NCBI RefSeq assembly: GCF_900638025.1
Contig: NZ_LR134481.1
Coordinates: 620,001 to 684,000 of the forward strand
Source: Haemophilus parainfluenzae
GTDB taxonomy: Bacteria; Pseudomonadota; Gammaproteobacteria; Enterobacterales; Pasteurellaceae
DNA length: 64,000 nt
Direction of reading: 5' to 3'
Numbering within the stretch: the stretch's first letter is position 1; every line of letters starts with the position of its first letter. The position numbers were made by a program, and so were the translations under genes. Shown here piece by piece: positions 906-64,000 of the stretch. The notes under the pieces are model-generated. The model worked only from the letters and a program-made list of their open reading frames with translations, made no database searches and had not been told where the DNA came from.

Positions 906-1585
906 AGAGTTTTCCTTGTTAAATAAAATTCGGCTAAAGCTAAATCTTCTGGACGTGTCACTTTAATATTATCACTCCTTCCCGCGACTAAGTGCGGTTT
1001 AAATCCAGCCAGTTCCATCGCAGAGGCTTCATCTGTAATATTGGCATCTTGAGAGAGCCCCTGTTCAAGTGCATTTCTTAATAGATCGCAACGGAAAAAT
1101 TGAGGGGTTTGTGCAAGCCAAAGTTCAGTGCGATCTTCTGTTTTAATAATATCTTGTTGTTTATTCGCACGTTTAATCGTATCTACTGCTGGAATGGCCA
1201 AAATAGCGCCTTGTTCATCATCGATTTGGAGCAATTTATCTAAATCTTGGTTTGTTAAACAAGGTCTAGCCGCATCATGCACTAACACCCATGCTTGGTT
1301 ATTTTTAATTGCTTTTAGCCCATTTAGAACTGACTTAGCTCGTGTTTTACCACCTTCAACGAGGGTGATGTTTTGATGAGGAAATAAAGCTATTTCTGAA
1401 AGATAGGGATCATTTTTTCCTACCGCAAGAATAACGTGATTGATTGCAGGGTGGGATAGAATGACAGAGAGTGTATGTTCCAGAATCGTCTTGTCTAAAA
1501 TTTTCAGATATTGCTTAGGTTTATTTGCCTGCATACGGCTTCCAACACCCGCAGCAGGTATGACGGCAATAATTTCACGCTTCAT
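902..1585 (-). CDS. ispD: 2-C-methyl-D-erythritol 4-phosphate cytidylyltransferase
   Basis: IspD transfers CMP from CTP to methylerythritol 4-phosphate, the third step of the MEP pathway. The glycine-rich nucleotide-binding signature [17 protein letters not shown] is at residues 11-27, and [11 protein letters not shown] (about residue 100) and [11 protein letters not shown] are conserved. It overlaps ispF by 4 bases and its start codon touches the ftsB stop codon, so the three genes are probably co-transcribed. An uptake signal core lies inside the gene at 990-998. Confidence 0.97.
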
Positions 1586-1863
1586 TATTTATGCTCTTTG
1601 ACGATGTGATAGAACACTTCATTTGGTTTGACCATATCATGATTCATGCGAGCACGTTCTTCAATAGATTCAAATCCCTTTGTGAGTCCTTGAATTTCAG
1701 CAGAAACCATTTGATTTCTTTGTGAGAGCTTTTCATTTTCAGCTTTATTCTCTTTGATTTGGGCGGCGACATCTTTGTAATCAAAATAGCCGTTTTTACC
1801 AAACCAAAGATCGTACTGAAAGAGCACGAGAATACCCACTAAAATTCCAATGAAAAGACGCAT
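1585..1863 (-). CDS. ftsB: Cell division protein FtsB
   Basis: FtsB is a small bitopic membrane protein that joins FtsQ and FtsL in the divisome and helps activate septal peptidoglycan synthesis. At 92 residues it has one N-terminal membrane span ([19 protein letters not shown]), a coiled coil rich in heptad E/K/N residues (about 30-65) and the [20 protein letters not shown] tail typical of the family. It heads the operon with ispD and ispF, the same arrangement as in E. coli. Confidence 0.95.
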
Positions 1864-2000
1864 AAATTACCTATTATTTCTGAAAACCTAGGATAGTTTA
1901 TCGTGAAATGCCGTGAAATGCGATGAAAAAGTGCGGTTAAAAATAAGATGATTTTCGAAATGAGGTCATTGTGCTTATGGGGTAATTTTAAAATAAAAAA

Positions 2001-2016
2001 TGTGATCTATCTCACA
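2001..2016 (+). promoter_or_regulatory. Predicted CRP site upstream of the e(P4) gene
   Basis: TGTGATCTATCTCACA is a full TGTGA-N6-TCACA palindrome. A likely -10 box TATACT lies at 2068-2073, putting the CRP centre near -71.5, a classic class I activation position. The site sequence is direct; regulation is inferred. Confidence 0.75.
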
Positions 2017-2098
2017 AATTAGTTATAAAGTTTGATAAACCCATAGCCACTGCCTGAATAGGCTTGTTATACTTTTGCCTGCCATTATAACGTTTTAA

Positions 2099-2932
<834 letters not shown>

Positions 2933-2950
2933 TTCCTATCTTATCATCAA

Positions 2951-2981
2951 TAAACACCCACATGATTGTGGGTGTTTTTAT
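2951..2981 (+). terminator. Rho-independent terminator of hel
   Basis: AACACCCACA (2953-2962) pairs with TGTGGGTGTT (2967-2976) around a TGAT loop and is followed by a T-run. Confidence 0.85.
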
Positions 2982-3000
2982 TTCTGTAGAAAAGTGCGGT

Positions 3001-3624
3001 CTATTTTTGTGTCATTTTTTCTTTATGGGCAGTGAAGTCACCACCTTTGGCAAGCATACGAAGTTGTAAGATAACACGCTCTTTTAACAAATCTTGTTCA
3101 GCTTTGGTCATATCTAAGGCATTAGAACCTGCTGTGAATACAATGGTTACCATACCTTCAGCCTGAACATAAGATACATATTGCGAGTAGTGGTTTTTCT
3201 TCGCAATGTATTCAGCCAATTCATCAACAAAGTGCTTGATTTCACGAGCAGCTGCGGTACGGAAAGCTTGAGAAGTGCCCGAACTTTCACGTAAGAGCAA
3301 ACGGAATACGTTGGTACTGTGGGTAATAAACTCAAAAAAAGTTTCCACGGAGACACGGATCACACTACCACCAGCATCAATACGTTTGCGAGCTTGACGC
3401 ATTAATTGACGGAGGGTTAAACCGGCTTCATCAACCATTTCTAAGCCGAGCTCATCCATATCGCTAAAGTGGCGATAGAAAGAAGTCGGTGCAATACCTG
3501 CTTCACGTGCCACTTCACGTAAACTCAGATTAGAAAAACTTTTTTCTGCACTTAATTGATTGAACGCTGCACCAATTAAGGCTCGACGGGTTTTTTCTTT
3601 TTGAATAGCTCGAACACCAGCCAT
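3001..3624 (-). CDS. fabR: TetR-family fatty acid biosynthesis repressor FabR
   Basis: FabR represses unsaturated fatty acid synthesis genes (fabA/fabB in E. coli) and sets membrane lipid saturation. The 207-residue protein has an N-terminal TetR-type helix-turn-helix ([20 protein letters not shown], about residues 34-53). An all-helical ligand domain follows, with [19 protein letters not shown] matching FabR orthologues. It lies 15 bases downstream of oxyR on the same strand, so the two may be co-transcribed; in E. coli fabR is also near oxyR. An uptake signal abuts the stop codon. Confidence 0.93.
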
Positions 3625-53827: not shown

Positions 53828-54085
53828 ATGGATATTGCAGTTATTGGTTCAAATATGGTTGATCTGATTACATATATAGATCGGATGCCTAAGTTGGGTG
53901 AGACACTTGAAGCTCCTAGCTTCAAGATAGGATGTGGAGGTAAGGGTGCTAATCAAGCAGTAGCTGCTGCTAAGTTAGGATCGAATGTGATGATGTTAAC
54001 AAAAGTTGGAGATGATTTGTTCGCTGATAACACATTAAAAAACTTTCAACGATATTCCAACATTCGAGCACAGAATTTGCAGTAA
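53828..54085 (+). pseudogene. Truncated ribokinase-type (PfkB family) gene
   Basis: The first about 78 codons are a convincing PfkB-family N-terminus: MDIAVIGSNMVDLITYIDRM, the sugar-binding GCGGKGANQAVAAAKLGSNV and KVGDDLFADNTLKNFQRY. Ribokinases have about 305 residues, so about three quarters are missing; there is no ATP-site GDTF motif. The frame then continues for a few unrelated codons (SNIRAQNLQ) and stops. The gene has a strong GGAGG ribosome site. The break lies near 54065, just upstream of the two-partner secretion locus. Confidence 0.82.
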
Positions 54086-54278: not shown

Positions 54279-56033
54279 ATGAAAGTAGTTCATCAGTATA
54301 TTTATTCGGTAATGATATTTGCCTGCCTTCCTAATTCTCTTTTTGCTAATCAAACTGCAAACTTCTCTCGCTTAAATCAAATCGATGCAACGCAACAACA
54401 ACGACAGCAACACATTCAACAAGCACAAGATAAAATATTGCAATCTCAATCTGATGTACGTTTAGATACCACCAATAATGAAAGATTGACATTATCAAAC
54501 CACGAAATCCCCTGTTACTCGGTCCATCGTATTAGTCTCGTCGATTACTCCACAACGCCTACTTCCTCTGAAAGCCAATTCCAATGGGCGTTTGATAAAG
54601 CAGCTCATGATTTAAACTTAATCTTACCACACTGTTTTGGCGGTGAAGGTTTAGGTATTTTAATGAAGCAAATTCAAAATCGTATCATTGAAAAAGGTTA
54701 TGTTACGACAAGAGTGGTGACCCAAGAGCAAGATTTGCGTTCAGGGACGTTAACACTCACGGTGATTCCAGGTAAGGTGGGGAATACATTAGTTTCCGAC
54801 AGTGGCAATGTCCCCCGCTTCACACGTTTGCATGCGTTAACAGGACTTACCTTTTCGAAAGGCGATGTTTTAAATGTGAGGGAGATTGAACAATCCCTTG
54901 AAAATCTCAAGCGTGTTCCGACCGCCGAAGCCAATATTGAGATATTACCAAGTGAAACGGATGTCGGTGTCAGCGATATTAAAATCAGCTACCAACAAGC
55001 ATTCCCTTTCCGTATTAATCTTGGTTTAGATGATTCAGGCTCTACTTCAACAGGTAAATACCAAGCTTCAGGTACACTCTCTTTAGATAATCTGTTTTCA
55101 GCCAATGACCTGTTTTATACCAGCTTCACCCACAGTTTAAAAAGTAGCGATGACGAAGCCGGAAAGCGTGCGACAAAAAATCTCACATTTTACTATTCTA
55201 TCCCGTTTGGTTATTGGACACTTTCTGCTTTACAAACCTATAACCGTTACTATCAAGAAGTCTTCGGTGCTTTTAATAATAACTACCTGTATGCTGGTAA
55301 AAGTAATACCACTAAGGCAACACTTTCTTATTTACTTTACCGTGACAGCAAACGTAAAACTTCGATTTCAGGCTCGTTTTGGTCTCGCCAATCGCAAAAT
55401 TATATTGACGGTGCAGAAATTGAGGTACAAAAACGTCGTATGGCAGGATGGGAAGCAGGCATTTCTCATAAAGAATATATCGGTGATGCAACCCTTGAGC
55501 TATCGGCAAATTATAAGCGAGGCACTGGTGCAAGAGGCTCGATTGAAGCACCTGAAGAGCTTTGGGGGGAAGGTACATCTCGCCCTAAAATAATGACTGC
55601 CTCCATTGAGCTAACCAAGCCATTTATGTTAGGTGAACAACCGTGGCAATATCAAAGTAGTTGGAATGCTCAATGGAATAAAACCCCTCTGATTGCCCAA
55701 GACCGTTTTAGTATTGGTGGGCGTTATACGGTGCGTGGTTTTGATGGCGAGTTAACTTTGTCCGGTGAGCGAGGTTGGTTATGGCGTAACGAGTTAGCTT
55801 GGAATGTGAATCAGAAAGGGCATCAGCTTTATCTTGCCCTAGATGGTGGACGGGTGATGGGTTGGTCAACCGAATCACAGCTTGGACATCATTTAATGGG
55901 TGCTGCGCTAGGCTTAAAAGGTGGCTTCGGTGGATTTTATTATGATGTTTTTGTTGGCAGACCTATCCGTAAGCCTGAGGGCTTTAGAACCTCTGATGCG
56001 GTAGCAGGTTTTAATATTGGATACAGTTTTTAA
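54279..56033 (+). CDS. Two-partner secretion outer-membrane transporter (TpsB/CdiB/ShlB type)
   Basis: This Omp85-superfamily transporter exports the downstream exoprotein. It has 584 residues with signal peptide MKVVHQYIYSVMIFACLPNS, then a Gln-rich alpha segment (QATAQQQRQQHIQQ-type, about residues 30-60) equivalent to the plug helix. Two POTRA domains follow (about 75-235; GEGLGILMKQIQNRIIEKGY, DVLNVREIEQSLENLKRVPT). A 16-strand barrel completes it, with the conserved DRFSIGGRYTVRGFDGELTL and the VRG motif. TpsA begins 45 bases downstream. Confidence 0.92.
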   Translation: MKVVHQYIYSVMIFACLPNSLFANQTANFSRLNQIDATQQQRQQHIQQAQDKILQSQSDVRLDTTNNERLTLSNHEIPCYSVHRISLVDYSTTPTSSESQFQWAFDKAAHDLNLILPHCFGGEGLGILMKQIQNRIIEKGYVTTRVVTQEQDLRSGTLTLTVIPGKVGNTLVSDSGNVPRFTRLHALTGLTFSKGDVLNVREIEQSLENLKRVPTAEANIEILPSETDVGVSDIKISYQQAFPFRINLGLDDSGSTSTGKYQASGTLSLDNLFSANDLFYTSFTHSLKSSDDEAGKRATKNLTFYYSIPFGYWTLSALQTYNRYYQEVFGAFNNNYLYAGKSNTTKATLSYLLYRDSKRKTSISGSFWSRQSQNYIDGAEIEVQKRRMAGWEAGISHKEYIGDATLELSANYKRGTGARGSIEAPEELWGEGTSRPKIMTASIELTKPFMLGEQPWQYQSSWNAQWNKTPLIAQDRFSIGGRYTVRGFDGELTLSGERGWLWRNELAWNVNQKGHQLYLALDGGRVMGWSTESQLGHHLMGAALGLKGGFGGFYYDVFVGRPIRKPEGFRTSDAVAGFNIGYSF

Positions 56034-56077
56034 TGGCTGATTGTCTTTCATTGGTTATTGATGTTTCGGAGTGAAAA

Positions 56078-59000
56078 ATGAATAAAAAATGTTTCTGTGT
56101 AATTTTTAGTAAAACCCTTCAACGCCTTGTGGTGACGTCTGAATTAGCAAAATCAGAAGGTAAATCTACGGAGTCGTCCGCTTTTGGCTTATCGCACATT
56201 TTTGCCCAAATCCGACCGCTTACCTTTAGCCTTTATTGTGCATTAGGCTTTGTAGCATTCTCTAATTCGGCATTAGCCAATCTGATTATTCAAGCCGATA
56301 AATCCGCCCCAAAAAATCAACAACCGATAGTACTACAAACAGCGAACGGTTTACCGCAAGTCAATATTCAAACCCCGAACGACAAAGGGCTTTCACATAA
56401 TAAATATGCCAAATTTGATGTTGATACCAAGGGGGCGATTTTGAACAACAGCCGCACCAATGTGCAAACACAGCAAGGCGGTTTGATTACGGGCAATCCT
56501 TATTTGGCGAGAGGGGAAGCTAAGGTCATTTTAAATGAAGTCAATTCCTCCGACCCCTCAGTGTTAAAAGGCTATGTGGAAGTAGCAGGCAAAAAGGCGG
56601 ATGTGATTATTGCCAATCCGTCTGGTATTCATTGCGAAGGGTGTGGGATTATCAACTCTAACCGTGCAACGCTCACAACCGGTAAACCACAGATTAAAAA
56701 CGGCAACTTAGAAAGCTTTGTGGTGGAAAAGGGTAAGGTCAAAGTATCGGGCAAGGGGTTGGATAACAGCCGAGTAGATTACACCGAGATTATTGCTCGA
56801 GAAACGCAAGTCAATGCCGGTCTTTGGTCTAAAAAAGAAGCTAAAGTGATTACCGGTAAGAATACGGTCAAGCAGTTGGAAACTTCGGCAGATTTACAAA
56901 TTATTCACAACAATCAACCGCTTGCGGATGAACCACGCCCACAGGTGGCGGTGGATGTTGGCGAGTTGGGCGGCATGTACTCGGGCAAAATTCATCTTAT
57001 CGGCACGGAAACAGGCGTGGGCGTGCACAATGCCGGACATATTGGGGCGAGTGCGGAAACCCTCAAAATTGACAGCGAAGGTCGCATTGTCAATACCGGA
57101 ACTTTAAACGCCAACCACGCCGTTCAACTAGCAGGCACAAAAGGCATTGAAAACCGAGGTAAAATCGAAAACCGCCAAGGCGACATGACCTTTAACACGG
57201 CAGCCGATATTCAACAAGATGGTTCTGTAGTCGCACGTGGCGGTCATATTCATCAAACGGCAAACCAAGCCATTCACCAGCAAGGTGAAACAGTGGCGAA
57301 AGGTCATATCACCTATAAGGCACCAAGTGTTACCGCTTCAACGTCATCACTGATTGCCTCAGGTGTTGAAGTCAAAGATAGCGAACAAGGTGAAGTTCGC
57401 ACACTTGGAAATCAATCGGCTCAAGGTAAGTCGATTACTGTTATCACCACAGGGAAAACCTCATTACAAGGTAAAAATGTGGCTTCGGGCAATATCAATG
57501 TCAGCAGTTCGGAAGCCGATTTAGACAACAGCCACACTTCTGCGCATGCAGTCAATATCAATGCATCTCAAGGTAAAATTCAAGCTAACAATGCAATCTT
57601 GATTGCCAATGCCGAGTTAGCCTTAATCGCGCCAACCTCGCTTGAAACTCAACATAGTGATGTAAAAGCAGAAAAAATCACGACGAAACAACGTTCATTG
57701 AATACAAAAGGAGCTACTTGGGAACAAACGGGCACAGGCGAATTAAAACTGGATGTTGCAGATACATTACACAATAGCGGCGGTACCTTTAAAACTCAAG
57801 GGGATTTAACCGTTAATGCCCAAGGCGTGAATAACCAACAAGGGCGTTTGATTGCGAAAGACAAACTGACGATCAATACCGAGCGTGGTAAATTAGATTC
57901 GACACAAGGCTTATTGGTGGCAGAGCAAGATATTGCTATCAATTCGGGTGAATTGATTAATGATGGCGGCTTAATTCAATCTAATCAAAATGTTGCTATT
58001 AATACCCAAGGACAATCTCTATCTAATAAACAGACCTTAACGGATGCCCAAGATAAGGGTATTGTTGCACTTGGAGAAGTGAATATTCAGGCAGGAAATG
58101 TAGTCAACCGACAAGGGCGGATCGTCAGTGTAGGCAAACAGATTATTAATGTTGCCAATGTCGATAATCAGCAAGGTTTGGTTTACACGCAGGACAATTC
58201 AACTTTAAATGCGAAAAATCTTTCTAATGATGAAGGTAGTATTCGTGCTGTTAAACAGGCTGATATCACATTATCTGATAATTTAAATCAGCAAAATGGT
58301 GCCATTAAAGCTCAGACATTAAATTTGACTGCAAATACACTGAATTCACTCACAAAAAGTGTCATTTCGGCGGATGATCTTAATATCATCACGTCAAATG
58401 AATTAAGCAATAAAGATAGCCATATTATTGCGAAGTTAAATGGTGATATTCAAACCGGCAGTACATTAAACAATAAGAATGGAACGATTGGCAGTCAGGA
58501 GCGTTCTTTCATTATCAATACGCATCAGCATCGTTTAGAAAACGAACAGGGAAATATTATTGCTGCTCAAAATATTGATATTAACAGCGGGGAAATCAAC
58601 AACAATCAAGGATTAATCTCAGCAAATGAGATTGCTATTAATAGCAATAATCAGTCAATTAATAATCAAAAAACCGTATTGAAAAAGCAAGGTAGTAAAG
58701 GGATTATTGCACAACATTCATTAACTCTGCATTCAAATTCTTTGAATAACAATAATGGGAATATTCTTTCACGCAATAATGTCACCGTAAATACGGCATC
58801 TCTCATTAATCATCAAGGTGAAATACGTACACAATCACAGCTTGATTTGCATACTAATACTCTCGAACAGAACAACGGTTTAATCACTGCAAATACTGTT
58901 AATTTGGTTGCTGATGCTATTAAATCAAATAAACAAAGCGAAATAAGCGGCAATCAAGTCAATGTGACTGCACAAACGCTGGATAATCAAGAGAGCAAAC

Positions 59001-62000
59001 TGATTGCACGCCAACTAGCACATGTTGATGTAAAACAAGGTATTCAAAATCAAAATGGCATCCTTGCCAGCCTTGGTGAAAAGCTCACGATTAATAGCAA
59101 TCAATCCGATATAAATAATACGGGCGGCATGGTTTTAGCGCAAAACGGCACACTGAAATTAAATACGAATATGCTTAATAATAAACAGGGGAGTATTCGT
59201 GCCAAAATAGCAGAAATTTTTGCGCAAAAAACCTTAGATAATCGCAATACTCTTGCAGATAGCCAGCAAGGTATCATTGCCACTGATTTGAGTTTAAAAG
59301 CGAAGCAACTTGATAATCAAGTCGGACGTATTACAGCGTTAAACAGCACCGCACTTCAAGCTTCTGATATTCAAAATCAGTCAGGTGAAATTTTAATGGT
59401 AAATGATGGTTCGCTGAATGCAGATAAAATCAATAATCAAGCCGGCCAAATTGCCTCTCTGTCTGCCAATTTAAATATTACGACACAAACAGCATTAAAT
59501 AATCAACAAGGTACGATCAAGGCAGAAAATATGCTTACCTTGATGACCAAAGGATTAGAAAATCAACAAGGCAAGGTGGTTTCATCCAATCAATTACTGC
59601 TCAAAACAGATCAACAACAGATTGATAACCAACAAGGCACCTTATTCGCCAAGAATAAGGCCGATATTCACTCGGGGAATATTAATAACCTAAACGGTCT
59701 CATTCGAGCAGACGATTCACTCTTAATTGAGGCTTACCAAAATGTCATTGATAACCGATATACCCAAGATGCTTTAAAGGGAATTGTTGGATTGCGTAGC
59801 ATGGTTTTACAAGGTGTCACTACGCTATTTAATCAGCAAGGTAAACTCTATGGTGGAAATACGCTTAATATCACGACAGCAGAAGACATACAAAACCAGC
59901 AAGGAATTTTTCAAAGTCAGGGAGATTTAACACTCTCTACACAGTCAGTAAATAATCAAGAGGGTAAGATTTCTTCTCATGTAGCCAATATTACAGCGAA
60001 AACAATCAATAACCGCGCAAAATCTGAGCAAGGTTCGTTAATTTATGCAGATAAATTAACCCTCAATACCGAGCAGCTTGATAACCAAGGCACAAAAGCA
60101 AAAGATAAATCACCGGCACAAGGTATTCAAGGTCAAGATATTGTCATCCAAACGTCAACATTAAATAACCAACAAGGTGGCATTTATAGTGCGAATAATG
60201 TCTCTATTACCTCAAATAATCATTTGAATAATAGCGAAGGAGAATTGTTGGCGGTGAACACCGTGGATGTCTTAAACGGTAACAATTTAATGGTAAATAA
60301 TGAGAAAGGGCTTATTCAAGGTAATAAAACCGTTAATTTAAATGCAACAGGTTTGGCATCTGAAGGCAATATTAAAACAAAGGGCGATCTGAATATCGCA
60401 TTAAAAGAGAGTTTTATCTTAAATAATGCTTTTGAAGCAAATAATCTAACGTTTAAAACGGAAGGTAACTTCACGAATAATACTGAGCAGAGAGTTGCCA
60501 ATAAAATGACGATTTCGGCAAATCATATTGAGAATCGTGCCAATGCAGAGCTTTCATCAAATGAGACAACGCTGAATTCAACGAACTTAATAAACCGAGG
60601 GTTGATTGATGGCGTTAACACCGTTATCAAGAGCTCAGCCGTAACAAATATCGGCACAGGACGAATTTACGGTGATCATTTAGCAATTAATGCTGCAACA
60701 GTCGAAAACTTGGCCGAAACCGTCAATGGAGAGACGAAAGCGGCTACGATTGCGGCAAGAGAGCGCCTAGATTTTGGGGTAAATACGTTAATTAATCAAG
60801 ATGGTGCTTTAATTCTCTCCTTAGGTAATACCGTGATAGGTAATACATTAGATAAAAATAATCATGCTGTTGGAAAGGCGAATTTAATTCAAAATGATAG
60901 TGCAACAATTGAATTGTTAGGCAATGCAGTGGTTAATGCCCAAAATGTGATTAACCGAGATACTAAAATCAAAACTCGAATCAGAGAAGAAAAAGAAACG
61001 TTTGATTTATATGGTAAAGAAAATGCTACTACTGAGAAAGTTTCTGAATGGTATCGAGTTGGTGTAGATGGAGAAATGGATCATGCAAACGGGAAACGTA
61101 AAAAAAGTGCAACCTTTACGTTTTATGATAGAGACAAAGGGAGCATTTCTTCGCATAAAGGGGATTATTGGCAACGTCGAGAGTTTACCCAAACACGCTA
61201 TATCCCGGAAATTTATGATGAATCTCCTGCTAAATTCCTTGTGGGCGGAAACTTACACCTTAATAGCGAAAATACACTCAATCAATATAGCCAACTTTTA
61301 ATTGGAGAAAGATTATATTTTAATGAACAAAATATTTCACAATCAGATGAAAACATTGATTCAAACAATGGAAAACTCGTGAATGAGGATTTCACCGCAA
61401 TACAGAGTGTAGATGAGCAAGGTTATTTTTATCGTTATAAGCAGGATAGACGGAGATCAGGAAAAGGAAGAAGACATAAAAATTTCTTAGATAGAAAGAT
61501 ACTAAATGTGATTAATGAACAATCTTCAAAAGAGCTGCATTTTAATCTTGTACTCAACACGATCGGCACCCCAATCACATCCAGTACCACTGTGGATGAG
61601 AAAACCAAAGTAAAAGATATTCAGTTAGATACAGTCTCTGTTATGTCAAATAGTGCGGAGAGTCCAAATGGGATTTCTATTGAACGATCACCATTAAATC
61701 CGTCTATCGGCAAGCATACCGAAATGACACTGACACCGACCATAAATAACCATAATGTGATTAGTTCTGGGCAGGTCATCGCTAAATTACAGACCGCCGT
61801 TGAAAAAGTTGATCCTCAAGACTTATCTAGCATGACCATGCCAATGGTAAAAACCCATTTGACAGAAGTGCGTTTACCACAGTCCAGCCTGTATAAAATC
61901 AATCCGGATGCTCCGAACGGCTATCTGGTGGAAACTGATCCAAAATTTACTGATCGTAAACGCTGGCTCAGTTCCGACTACATGTTTGAACAGCTTCGTT

Positions 62001-64000
62001 ACAATCACGATAACGTACATAAACGTTTAGGCGACGGTTTCTATGAACAGCGTTTAATCAATGAACAAATTAACCAGCTCACCGGTCGCCGTTATATTGA
62101 GGGTTACAATAACGATTTCGCACAATATCAAGCGTTAATGAAGAGTGGTGTGGAATACGCTAAACAATTTAACCTTGCCTTGGGTGTGGGCTTAACGGCG
62201 AAACAGATGTCGGAGCTGACGACCGATATGGTGTGGTTAGTTAATAAAGAAGTCACGCTTGCAGACGGACGTAAAATCACCGCCCTTGTACCACAAGTGT
62301 ATTTAGTTGCACGAGATAGCGATATTAGTTCCCGAGGTGCAGTGATTTCAGCCAATCAAATAGAGGGCAATGTGGGCGAACTAAACAATAGCGGTGTAAT
62401 AGCCGGACGAGATTTAATCCAGATTCATTCGAGTCAACTGCAAAACGAAGGCTCGATACTGGGGGATACGGTTGATTTATCCGCTCAACAAAACCTGATT
62501 AACCTCGGTGGACGCATTGAGGCGGTAAAATCCCTCTCGCTGTCGGCGGGGAAAAATTTAGACATTAGCAGTACGCTTTCCTCTTCAGAAAGTGCTGACG
62601 GCAATGTTGCCCGCACGGTGTTAGACCGTCTTGCCAGCGTGAAAGTCACCGGCGCAGGCGGCCATTTGGCATTACACAGCAATGAGAACCTGACGATAAA
62701 AGCGGCCGATATTGAAAGCCAAGGCAGCTTAAGCGCAACGGCAGGGAATATGTTAAACGTGACGACATTAGCGGTGCGCAATAAAGAATATTACAACGGC
62801 GATGCGGATAACTACTATCGTTTAGCGCAACATTCGGAAGTCGGCAGTAGCCTTAAAGGCAAGGATGATGTAACGCTTGTGGCGAAAAAGGATGTCCGGC
62901 TACGCCAATCGAATATCGGTAGTGAAAAGGGCAACGTACTTATTAGCTCACAACAAGGGAATATACAGGTTGAAGCCGGGCGCGAAGAGGAACAACTGGC
63001 AAGCGCTTCAAAATCCGTGAGCAGAGGTCGCTTCGGGTTGAGTAAAACGACGGAGATACGTCGTCATGAACACCATATTGAACAATCGGTGAGCAGTAAC
63101 ATTGACGGAAAAACAGTAAATCTTATTGCCTATCAAGGGAATGTGACGGTGCAAGGCTCAAATGTGGTGGGAGAAAACGGCTTAACGGTGCGGGCGAAAA
63201 ACATCGACATCAAAGAAGCGGAAAACAAATTTTATTCCGATGATTTTCACAGCAAGAAAAAATCAGGCATGTTGGGCAGAGGCCTAGGGGTTACGTTTGG
63301 TGCCCAAAAGCAAACGCTAGAAAGCGATAAAACGAAGTTTTATGCCCAGGGCAGCCAAGTGGGGAGCTTAAACGGCAACGTCACCCTCATCGCAGAGAAT
63401 CATTACACTCAAACGGCAAGTCAGGTGAGTGCAATCAAAGGCGGCGATGTAAATATTCTGGCTAAAAAAGTTGATATTAAAGCGGCTGATGACAAATATG
63501 AAACCAATACCAAACAAACCTTTGAACAAAAAGGTGTAACTCTTGCGATTACCTCCCCTGTTATTTCTGCTATTCAAGCAGTACAAGGCGCAGTGCAATC
63601 AACTAGACAAGTAGGTGAGAGTAAGCATGGTCGTGTGAATGCGATGGCAGCAGCTAATGCTGGTTTTGATGCTTATCGTGCAGCTGATAGCGTAATGAAA
63701 GCTGGCGACTCTATTCAAAAAGCAATGAGTAATAGCGATGTGGATTCCGTAGTAGGGGCACAAATCACTTACGGCCAACAAAAGAGTGAATCACGCACGC
63801 ATACTGAAGGCAAAACCGCGGCCAAATCTCAAGTGAATGCAGACGGCAAAGTAAATATAGTGGCAACGGGTGCAGGAAAGGATTCCAACATTAATATTGA
63901 AGGTTCAGATATCTCAGGCAAACAAGGCACGACTTTGATGGCAGACAATCAAGTAAACATCAAAGCAGCAGAACAAAACCACCAAGAACGTAGCACTAAT
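56078..64000 (+). CDS. Large TpsA/CdiA-type filamentous hemagglutinin exoprotein (3' partial)
   Basis: The frame from ATG 56078 (RBS CGGAGTGAAAA) has no stop in all 2641 codons to the window end. Residues 1-67 are an extended signal (MNKKCFCVIFSKTLQRLVVT, SELAKSEGKS, then a hydrophobic core ending SNSALA). Residues about 68-320 are the TPS secretion domain, with IIANPSGIHCEGCGIINSNR (about 178). Residues about 540-1640 are repeats of the NxQGxI/L type. Residues 1640-1840 are non-repetitive; residues about 1925-2075 hold a conserved core (YLVETDP, RWLSSDYMFEQL, LGDGFYEQRLINEQI, DMVWLVNKEV). A second repeat region follows (about 2080-2641). The layout is CdiA-like; the C-terminus is outside the window. 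Confidence 0.9.
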   Translation, partial: MNKKCFCVIFSKTLQRLVVTSELAKSEGKSTESSAFGLSHIFAQIRPLTFSLYCALGFVAFSNSALANLIIQADKSAPKNQQPIVLQTANGLPQVNIQTPNDKGLSHNKYAKFDVDTKGAILNNSRTNVQTQQGGLITGNPYLARGEAKVILNEVNSSDPSVLKGYVEVAGKKADVIIANPSGIHCEGCGIINSNRATLTTGKPQIKNGNLESFVVEKGKVKVSGKGLDNSRVDYTEIIARETQVNAGLWSKKEAKVITGKNTVKQLETSADLQIIHNNQPLADEPRPQVAVDVGELGGMYSGKIHLIGTETGVGVHNAGHIGASAETLKIDSEGRIVNTGTLNANHAVQLAGTKGIENRGKIENRQGDMTFNTAADIQQDGSVVARGGHIHQTANQAIHQQGETVAKGHITYKAPSVTASTSSLIASGVEVKDSEQGEVRTLGNQSAQGKSITVITTGKTSLQGKNVASGNINVSSSEADLDNSHTSAHAVNINASQGKIQANNAILIANAELALIAPTSLETQHSDVKAEKITTKQRSLNTKGATWEQTGTGELKLDVADTLHNSGGTFKTQGDLTVNAQGVNNQQGRLIAKDKLTINTERGKLDSTQGLLVAEQDIAINSGELINDGGLIQSNQNVAINTQGQSLSNKQTLTDAQDKGIVALGEVNIQAGNVVNRQGRIVSVGKQIINVANVDNQQGLVYTQDNSTLNAKNLSNDEGSIRAVKQADITLSDNLNQQNGAIKAQTLNLTANTLNSLTKSVISADDLNIITSNELSNKDSHIIAKLNGDIQTGSTLNNKNGTIGSQERSFIINTHQHRLENEQGNIIAAQNIDINSGEINNNQGLISANEIAINSNNQSINNQKTVLKKQGSKGIIAQHSLTLHSNSLNNNNGNILSRNNVTVNTASLINHQGEIRTQSQLDLHTNTLEQNNGLITANTVNLVADAIKSNKQSEISGNQVNVTAQTLDNQESKLIARQLAHVDVKQGIQNQNGILASLGEKLTINSNQSDINNTGGMVLAQNGTLKLNTNMLNNKQGSIRAKIAEIFAQKTLDNRNTLADSQQGIIATDLSLKAKQLDNQVGRITALNSTALQASDIQNQSGEILMVNDGSLNADKINNQAGQIASLSANLNITTQTALNNQQGTIKAENMLTLMTKGLENQQGKVVSSNQLLLKTDQQQIDNQQGTLFAKNKADIHSGNINNLNGLIRADDSLLIEAYQNVIDNRYTQDALKGIVGLRSMVLQGVTTLFNQQGKLYGGNTLNITTAEDIQNQQGIFQSQGDLTLSTQSVNNQEGKISSHVANITAKTINNRAKSEQGSLIYADKLTLNTEQLDNQGTKAKDKSPAQGIQGQDIVIQTSTLNNQQGGIYSANNVSITSNNHLNNSEGELLAVNTVDVLNGNNLMVNNEKGLIQGNKTVNLNATGLASEGNIKTKGDLNIALKESFILNNAFEANNLTFKTEGNFTNNTEQRVANKMTISANHIENRANAELSSNETTLNSTNLINRGLIDGVNTVIKSSAVTNIGTGRIYGDHLAINAATVENLAETVNGETKAATIAARERLDFGVNTLINQDGALILSLGNTVIGNTLDKNNHAVGKANLIQNDSATIELLGNAVVNAQNVINRDTKIKTRIREEKETFDLYGKENATTEKVSEWYRVGVDGEMDHANGKRKKSATFTFYDRDKGSISSHKGDYWQRREFTQTRYIPEIYDESPAKFLVGGNLHLNSENTLNQYSQLLIGERLYFNEQNISQSDENIDSNNGKLVNEDFTAIQSVDEQGYFYRYKQDRRRSGKGRRHKNFLDRKILNVINEQSSKELHFNLVLNTIGTPITSSTTVDEKTKVKDIQLDTVSVMSNSAESPNGISIERSPLNPSIGKHTEMTLTPTINNHNVISSGQVIAKLQTAVEKVDPQDLSSMTMPMVKTHLTEVRLPQSSLYKINPDAPNGYLVETDPKFTDRKRWLSSDYMFEQLRYNHDNVHKRLGDGFYEQRLINEQINQLTGRRYIEGYNNDFAQYQALMKSGVEYAKQFNLALGVGLTAKQMSELTTDMVWLVNKEVTLADGRKITALVPQVYLVARDSDISSRGAVISANQIEGNVGELNNSGVIAGRDLIQIHSSQLQNEGSILGDTVDLSAQQNLINLGGRIEAVKSLSLSAGKNLDISSTLSSSESADGNVARTVLDRLASVKVTGAGGHLALHSNENLTIKAADIESQGSLSATAGNMLNVTTLAVRNKEYYNGDADNYYRLAQHSEVGSSLKGKDDVTLVAKKDVRLRQSNIGSEKGNVLISSQQGNIQVEAGREEEQLASASKSVSRGRFGLSKTTEIRRHEHHIEQSVSSNIDGKTVNLIAYQGNVTVQGSNVVGENGLTVRAKNIDIKEAENKFYSDDFHSKKKSGMLGRGLGVTFGAQKQTLESDKTKFYAQGSQVGSLNGNVTLIAENHYTQTASQVSAIKGGDVNILAKKVDIKAADDKYETNTKQTFEQKGVTLAITSPVISAIQAVQGAVQSTRQVGESKHGRVNAMAAANAGFDAYRAADSVMKAGDSIQKAMSNSDVDSVVGAQITYGQQKSESRTHTEGKTAAKSQVNADGKVNIVATGAGKDSNINIEGSDISGKQGTTLMADNQVNIKAAEQNHQERSTN

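Follow-up and report, generated by a model that had tools for sequence, protein, structure and literature searches.

The DNA analysed here, which we call the window, is a 64,000-base stretch (bases 620001-684000) of the single 2,062,405-base contig of Haemophilus parainfluenzae. Its right end carried a transporter gene followed by the start of a large exoprotein gene, with these features:

54279-56033, + strand: cdiB, outer-membrane TpsB transporter of 584 aa (ORF; POTRA_2, POTRA_3 and ShlB matches)
56078-64000, + strand: cdiA, the part inside the window (ORF; 2641 residues before the window edge)
56078-56182, + strand: ESPR, CdiA residues 1-35 (Pfam PF13018, 2.7e-9)
56288-57091, + strand: TPS secretion domain, CdiA residues 71-338 (Pfam PF05860, 8.1e-53)
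61922-62242, + strand: conserved mid-protein core with YLVETDP, WLSSDYM, LGDGFYEQ and VWLV (from motif positions and identity to Glaesserella australis)
63773-64000, + strand: start of the best-scoring Fil_haemagg_2 stretch (Pfam PF13332; residues 2566-2736, extending beyond the window)

CdiB matched ShlB (1.8e-104), POTRA_2 (6e-15) and POTRA_3 in Pfam, and was 97% identical to its counterpart in the genus-mate G010 and 96% identical to that of Glaesserella australis. A preliminary description of this DNA had rightly placed the partner transporter directly upstream of the exoprotein gene, but had given the spacing as 45 bases, whereas cdiA starts 44 bases past the cdiB stop. A TpsB protein (POTRA, ShlB barrel) immediately 5' of a large TPS exoprotein is the arrangement expected of cdiBAI loci. 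The exoprotein frame had been said to stay open from 56078 to base 64000 over at least 2641 residues; the ORF listing bore this out, and the frame was the longest in the window (2642 codons from stop to stop, the next being 956). In a profile search of the whole genome the TPS domain of CdiA was the single match to PF05860, and neither PF05860 nor PF04829 matched in 14 control genomes. The four core motifs, also reported earlier, were all located, each occurring once in CdiA (YLVETDP 61922-61942, WLSSDYM 61964-61984, LGDGFYEQ 62027-62050, VWLV 62231-62242), and we take this core to border the receptor-binding region. A promoter scan found 59 promoter-like sites against 59.9 in shuffles, which is no excess.

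We read the same chromosome on past base 64000, and positions there are given in extended window coordinates. The stop of cdiA lay at 66754 (gene at chromosome 676078-686754), giving a protein of 3558 aa whose Pfam domains followed the order ESPR, TPS, Fil_haemagg, Fil_haemagg_2 and PT-VENN. Both profiles put forward in the preliminary description matched CdiA, PF05860 as listed above and PF13332 at 6.9e-50 over three stretches, and PT-VENN matched at residues 3152-3202 (family E-value 7.6e-16). The VENN motif itself stood at residue 3196 (65663-65674) with 359 residues beyond it, a length within the 200-400 residues expected of a C-terminal module. On the assumption of CDI, a toxin C-terminus after a VENN-like motif, and a small immunity-type gene behind it, had been predicted to lie just past the window, and that is where both a tail and a small gene were found.

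Comparison with relatives placed a sharp boundary at the same motif. A stretch of 19.7 kb in G010 matched at 94.9% identity; it ended at 65679, five bases beyond VENN, and the DNA was different from there on. In Glaesserella australis the CdiA sequence after VENN also differed, to the extent that the fetched locus covers it, so that the variable tail characteristic of CDI was seen in both comparisons. Ahead of the boundary, G. australis CdiA was 94% identical over residues 1951-2100 and 32% over residues 1651-1800; its low identities over the last part of the protein include missing sequence, since the locus ends there. The tail of G010 ran for ~27 residues after VENN before a stop. Its cdiA was split near the start into frames of 121 aa and 3106 aa, and an inverted orphan PT-VENN module lay behind it (G010:C1:748073-757755). 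Given the short tail and the split cdiA this locus looks damaged, and judged from its sequence G010 appears to show the boundary at VENN and not a working second tip.

The gene behind cdiA was the following:

66744-66935 (extended): immunity candidate of 63 aa (ORF), sharing 11 bases with the 3' end of cdiA

A GGAGG-type site stood just upstream of this ORF, whose product contained two hydrophobic segments (three runs above KD 1.6, the last two overlapping) and had no match in Pfam or NCBIfam. We found 24 relatives, of which 23 were aligned (P0180 was omitted). An AlphaFold2 model, made from 23 sequences for P0169, a relative with 98% identity to the candidate, had helices at residues 2-26 and 31-61 (mean pLDDT 80, pTM 0.42), and by this model the candidate would share the small two-helix hairpin that is a feature of CDI ionophore immunity proteins. 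The small gene was linked to the toxin: a match to it lay directly 3' of the toxin at five of seven loci and in five of six genomes (G000, G007, G082, G125 and G131), the loci being counted from eight toxin matches without treating a short second match in G131 as separate. The ORF was intact in G000, G007, G082 and G131; the G125 match was a 40% tblastn match absent from the ORF listing, and G136 had no small-gene match at its two loci, both of which had partial toxin matches. In G007 the toxin was 99% and the small gene 100% identical, with CdiA 35-55% identical in its first half and 81% in its second. A second match to the immunity candidate, 46% identical, was observed in G007 5' of cdiB (L064 reverse complement, ~982-1149), and the cdiB preceding this same toxin occupied two frames (L064 reverse complement, 1306-3116).

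The tail of CdiA after VENN had no match in Pfam, NCBIfam or the PDB. In the PDB sequence search, run with VENN and everything after it (363 residues), no match up to E 1 came back, and none up to E 1 came from tblastn of the toxin domain, the last 169 residues (3390-3558), against 72,556 PLSDB plasmid records. Homologues of this domain were found in 6 of 140 Pasteurellaceae genomes and sat both on VENN-type proteins (e.g. P0002, P0003 and P0122) and on VENN-less exoproteins (e.g. P0128). Exoprotein relatives were taken as the best 120 of 239 proteins, with 7997 candidates scored; from the fifteenth on, most spanned 12-23% of the query, seemingly its PT-VENN part, as checked in P0015 alone. 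The toxin alignment used 13 of the best 14, omitting P0014, which stops inside the domain. VENN-type and VENN-less proteins were compared through 27 selected proteins and pieces of more than 60 residues. In that comparison the toxin of P0128 was 91.7% identical to the resident one, the backbone pieces were 30-43% identical, and Pfam found no PT-VENN in it. In those VENN-less relatives for which it was measured, identity was just 45% over the first 20 of the 169 toxin-domain residues, and the shared toxin part therefore seems to begin near residue 3410. Residues 3510-3558 at the other end were poorly conserved in five of six relatives compared, P0004 being the exception, as would be expected where an immunity protein binds. 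When the toxin domain was modelled from an alignment of 13 sequences led by the relative P0005, mean pLDDT came to 36 and the model was unusable, so that a helical nature of the toxin is just hinted at. No segment of the domain rose above KD 1.6 (maximum 1.33), which is weak for a membrane-spanning domain. A colicin pore-forming domain match in the relative P0002 (E 0.00094) scored 19.5 bits against a cut-off of 23.4; we discounted it, as it overlies PT-VENN (residues 216-289) and not the toxin domain, and do not count it as support.

Downstream of the immunity candidate lay two orphan modules, in extended coordinates:

67313-69112: orphan 1, PT-VENN with CDI_toxin_EC869_like (Pfam, 5.2e-46)
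69114-69617: CdiI of orphan 1 (3e-36)
69816-70760: Imm49, after the CdiI of orphan 1 (3.3e-12)
71012-72313: orphan 2, PT-VENN with EndoU (Pfam, 1.6e-22)

Orphan 1 matched the PDB chains 4g6u_A (over its residues 437-598, 4.5e-19) and 4zqu_A, and its partner matched three solved CdiI chains; for the EndoU orphan the PDB sequence search gave none up to E 1. Orphan 2 was followed by a 130-aa ORF without a family (candidate immunity gene), then by a partial EndoU and a DUF5376 gene. These last two (L002 18730-19457), the partial EndoU standing immediately behind the 130-aa ORF, form a third, incomplete module in which the DUF5376 gene may be the EndoU immunity gene. Self-comparison showed that pre-VENN sequence of cdiA is repeated before the orphans, over 896 bases at 95.2% and 464 bases at 94.8% identity, with both repeats ending at VENN or a few bases past it, as expected of an orphan array. 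Repeats of this length and of ~95% identity, ending around VENN, could allow recombination to load the orphan tips. Orphan cdiA-CT arrays in the same arrangement are described for E. coli EC93 and EC869 and for Yersinia in the available part of PMC3150448, which for EC93 reports that orphan CdiI was shown to be made and proposes recombination at VENN.

All of these genes lie in what appears to be an island of ~25.2 kb, as homology to the corresponding site of the relative G003 breaks off at 54048 and picks up again at 79268 (extended). Its left edge was marked by one feature:

53828-54085, + strand: truncated ribokinase-like gene of 85 aa (name read from the translation)

Residues 1-74 of the ribokinase-like product matched an intact 305-aa gene in G003, and the gene was cut short both in this genome and in G010, with the cdi island next to it. 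The empty site was compared in 4 of the 10 other genus members (G001-G004), and G010 was compared separately; deoC, deoR, resA and ribokinase are names read from translations alone. In three of the four (G001, G002 and G004) deoC adjoined the resA-like gene of the right flank, and in G003 a block of ~4.3 kb with deoR, the intact ribokinase-like gene and two further ORFs stood between them. The right part of the island held a PemK/MazE toxin-antitoxin pair, a T4SS coupling-protein fragment and a resolvase (extended 74167-76798), as well as a cdiA fragment. Uptake sequences in window positions 1-54000 numbered 33 of the AAGTGCGGT type vs 2 of the ACAAGCGGT type, a predominance that presumably places the genome in the H. 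influenzae-type clade.

Of 140 Pasteurellaceae genomes, 76 carried PT-VENN; within this genus the figure was 6 of 11. CDI had been called little described in human Haemophilus, and this stood in so far as we found no literature on H. parainfluenzae with CdiA, or on Haemophilus haemolyticus with cdiA, among open-licence papers, although that collection does contain papers in which H. parainfluenzae occurs together with contact-dependent growth inhibition or with two-partner secretion. Kin and database entries lower the novelty: public databases already contain PT-VENN proteins under the names H. haemolyticus and H. parainfluenzae, and published accounts of CDI with orphan modules exist for H. 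parasuis D74 (PMC6211672, in the part available) and for NI1060, a relative of Pasteurella pneumotropica (PMC4943601, likewise in part). The CDI system itself is thus ordinary for Pasteurellaceae. The resident toxin is the new part of the locus, a toxin/immunity pair for which no family name was found.

We are highly confident that this is a CDI locus with orphan modules, whose toxic tip probably poisons neighbouring bacteria while the small membrane protein probably protects its owner. CdiB would export CdiA to the cell surface, where CdiA would bind a neighbour on contact and release everything that follows VENN. Of this tail, some 190 residues at the front are probably used for inner-membrane entry, and the last 169 would be the toxin: an ionophore-like domain, helical in build, that would insert into the membrane and collapse its potential. 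The immunity protein would then be the membrane protein of 63 residues and two helices whose gene spans the stop codon of cdiA, and the orphan modules would be spare tips with their immunity genes, loadable by recombination. According to the available part of PMC11630599, in CDI ionophores the C-terminal domain is built of five helices; these toxins dissipate the membrane potential, and their immunity proteins are very hydrophobic two-helix hairpins of 72-100 residues. Granted a CDI locus, we lean towards such a membrane-depolarising ionophore as the resident toxin.

Alternatively, the CDI locus might carry as its resident toxin a soluble enzyme of a new family, with the small gene protecting in another way or not being an immunity gene at all. 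Characterised CDI toxins are mostly nucleases (PMC11630599, in the part available), and a soluble enzyme would fit both a tail without family or solved-sequence match and a toxin domain in which no segment reaches KD 1.6. It sits less well with the small protein, which resembles the published ionophore immunity proteins (same source and extent) and a match to which follows the toxin at five of seven loci; an enzyme acting in the cytoplasm is not what one would normally expect a hydrophobic two-helix protein to block. We regard the soluble enzyme as unlikely, though by no means negligible; being a sub-alternative inside the CDI reading, its probability overlaps with that of our preferred explanation.

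Plain adhesins of the HMW/LspA type have no PT-VENN, toxin tail or immunity gene. Such an adhesin, and a missing C-terminal module, had been named beforehand as what would speak against CDI, and neither was found: once the end of cdiA was read, its PT-VENN, its tail and the small gene set it outside that definition. A plain two-partner adhesin or haemolysin that lacks an antibacterial tip (HMW, LspA or FHA type) is therefore hardly credible, even though the bulk of CdiA is an FHA-type haemagglutinin-repeat protein and CdiA proteins can double as adhesins (PMC11630599, in the part available). The sharp change of sequence at VENN between relatives, the overlapping small gene and the two orphan PT-VENN modules, in which toxin and immunity families already known are represented, all argue against it. 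A decaying CDI island, once active and now silent, is improbable too. Signs of decay are seen in G010, with its cdiA in two frames, its short tail and its inverted orphan, and in the two-frame cdiB of G007, and the right end of the island considered here holds a cdiA fragment, a T4SS coupling-protein fragment and a resolvase. Here, however, cdiB and cdiA are both intact at 584 and 3558 codons, which speaks against decay because frames of this length would hardly be expected to persist for long if selection did not maintain them.

For the CDI locus with an ionophore-like toxin, we tentatively suggest a further step: the last ~169 residues and the 63-residue hairpin may form an undescribed Pasteurellaceae family of membrane-active toxin and immunity protein, with the toxin having crossed between VENN-type CdiA and VENN-less exoproteins. 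A toxin 91.7% identical on backbone pieces 30-43% identical would point to one toxin used with two scaffolds and entry modules. Near-identical toxin and small gene on differing CdiA fronts in two related genomes would make exchange of the toxin between scaffolds directly testable, as would the same toxin on VENN-less proteins. H. parainfluenzae is common in the human mouth and throat. The locus would bring contact-dependent competition into this bacterium, and offers a toxin that has no family name as yet.

The closest likenesses to known systems differ from one part of the locus to another. H. (Glaesserella) parasuis D74, as described in the available part of PMC6211672, shares the cdiBAI order, the downstream orphans and the domains ESPR, PF05860, PF05594, PF13332, PT-VENN and EndoU, but belongs to another genus, and the likeness is one of gene order and domains, not of toxin residues. 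With E. coli EC93 and the CDI ionophore family our locus shares the B-A-I order, VENN and a small hydrophobic two-helix immunity protein, the last of 63 aa here vs 72-100 there and likened by description only (PMC11630599, in part). Orphan 1 and the gene next to it match the toxin and CdiI of E. coli EC869 CdiA-CT/CdiI (4g6u) with moderate similarity, although here this toxin stands as an orphan 3' of a cdiA whose own tail is different. The cdi genes of Glaesserella australis HS4635 are close in CdiB (96%) and in DNA (89.4% over 4.0 kb), with ProS at 87%, whereas the middle of CdiA and its post-VENN part differ and no left-flank match was found in the 10 kb 5' of cdiB. Set against the single housekeeping gene ProS, the higher identity of CdiB suggests that cdi genes may have been transferred between genera.
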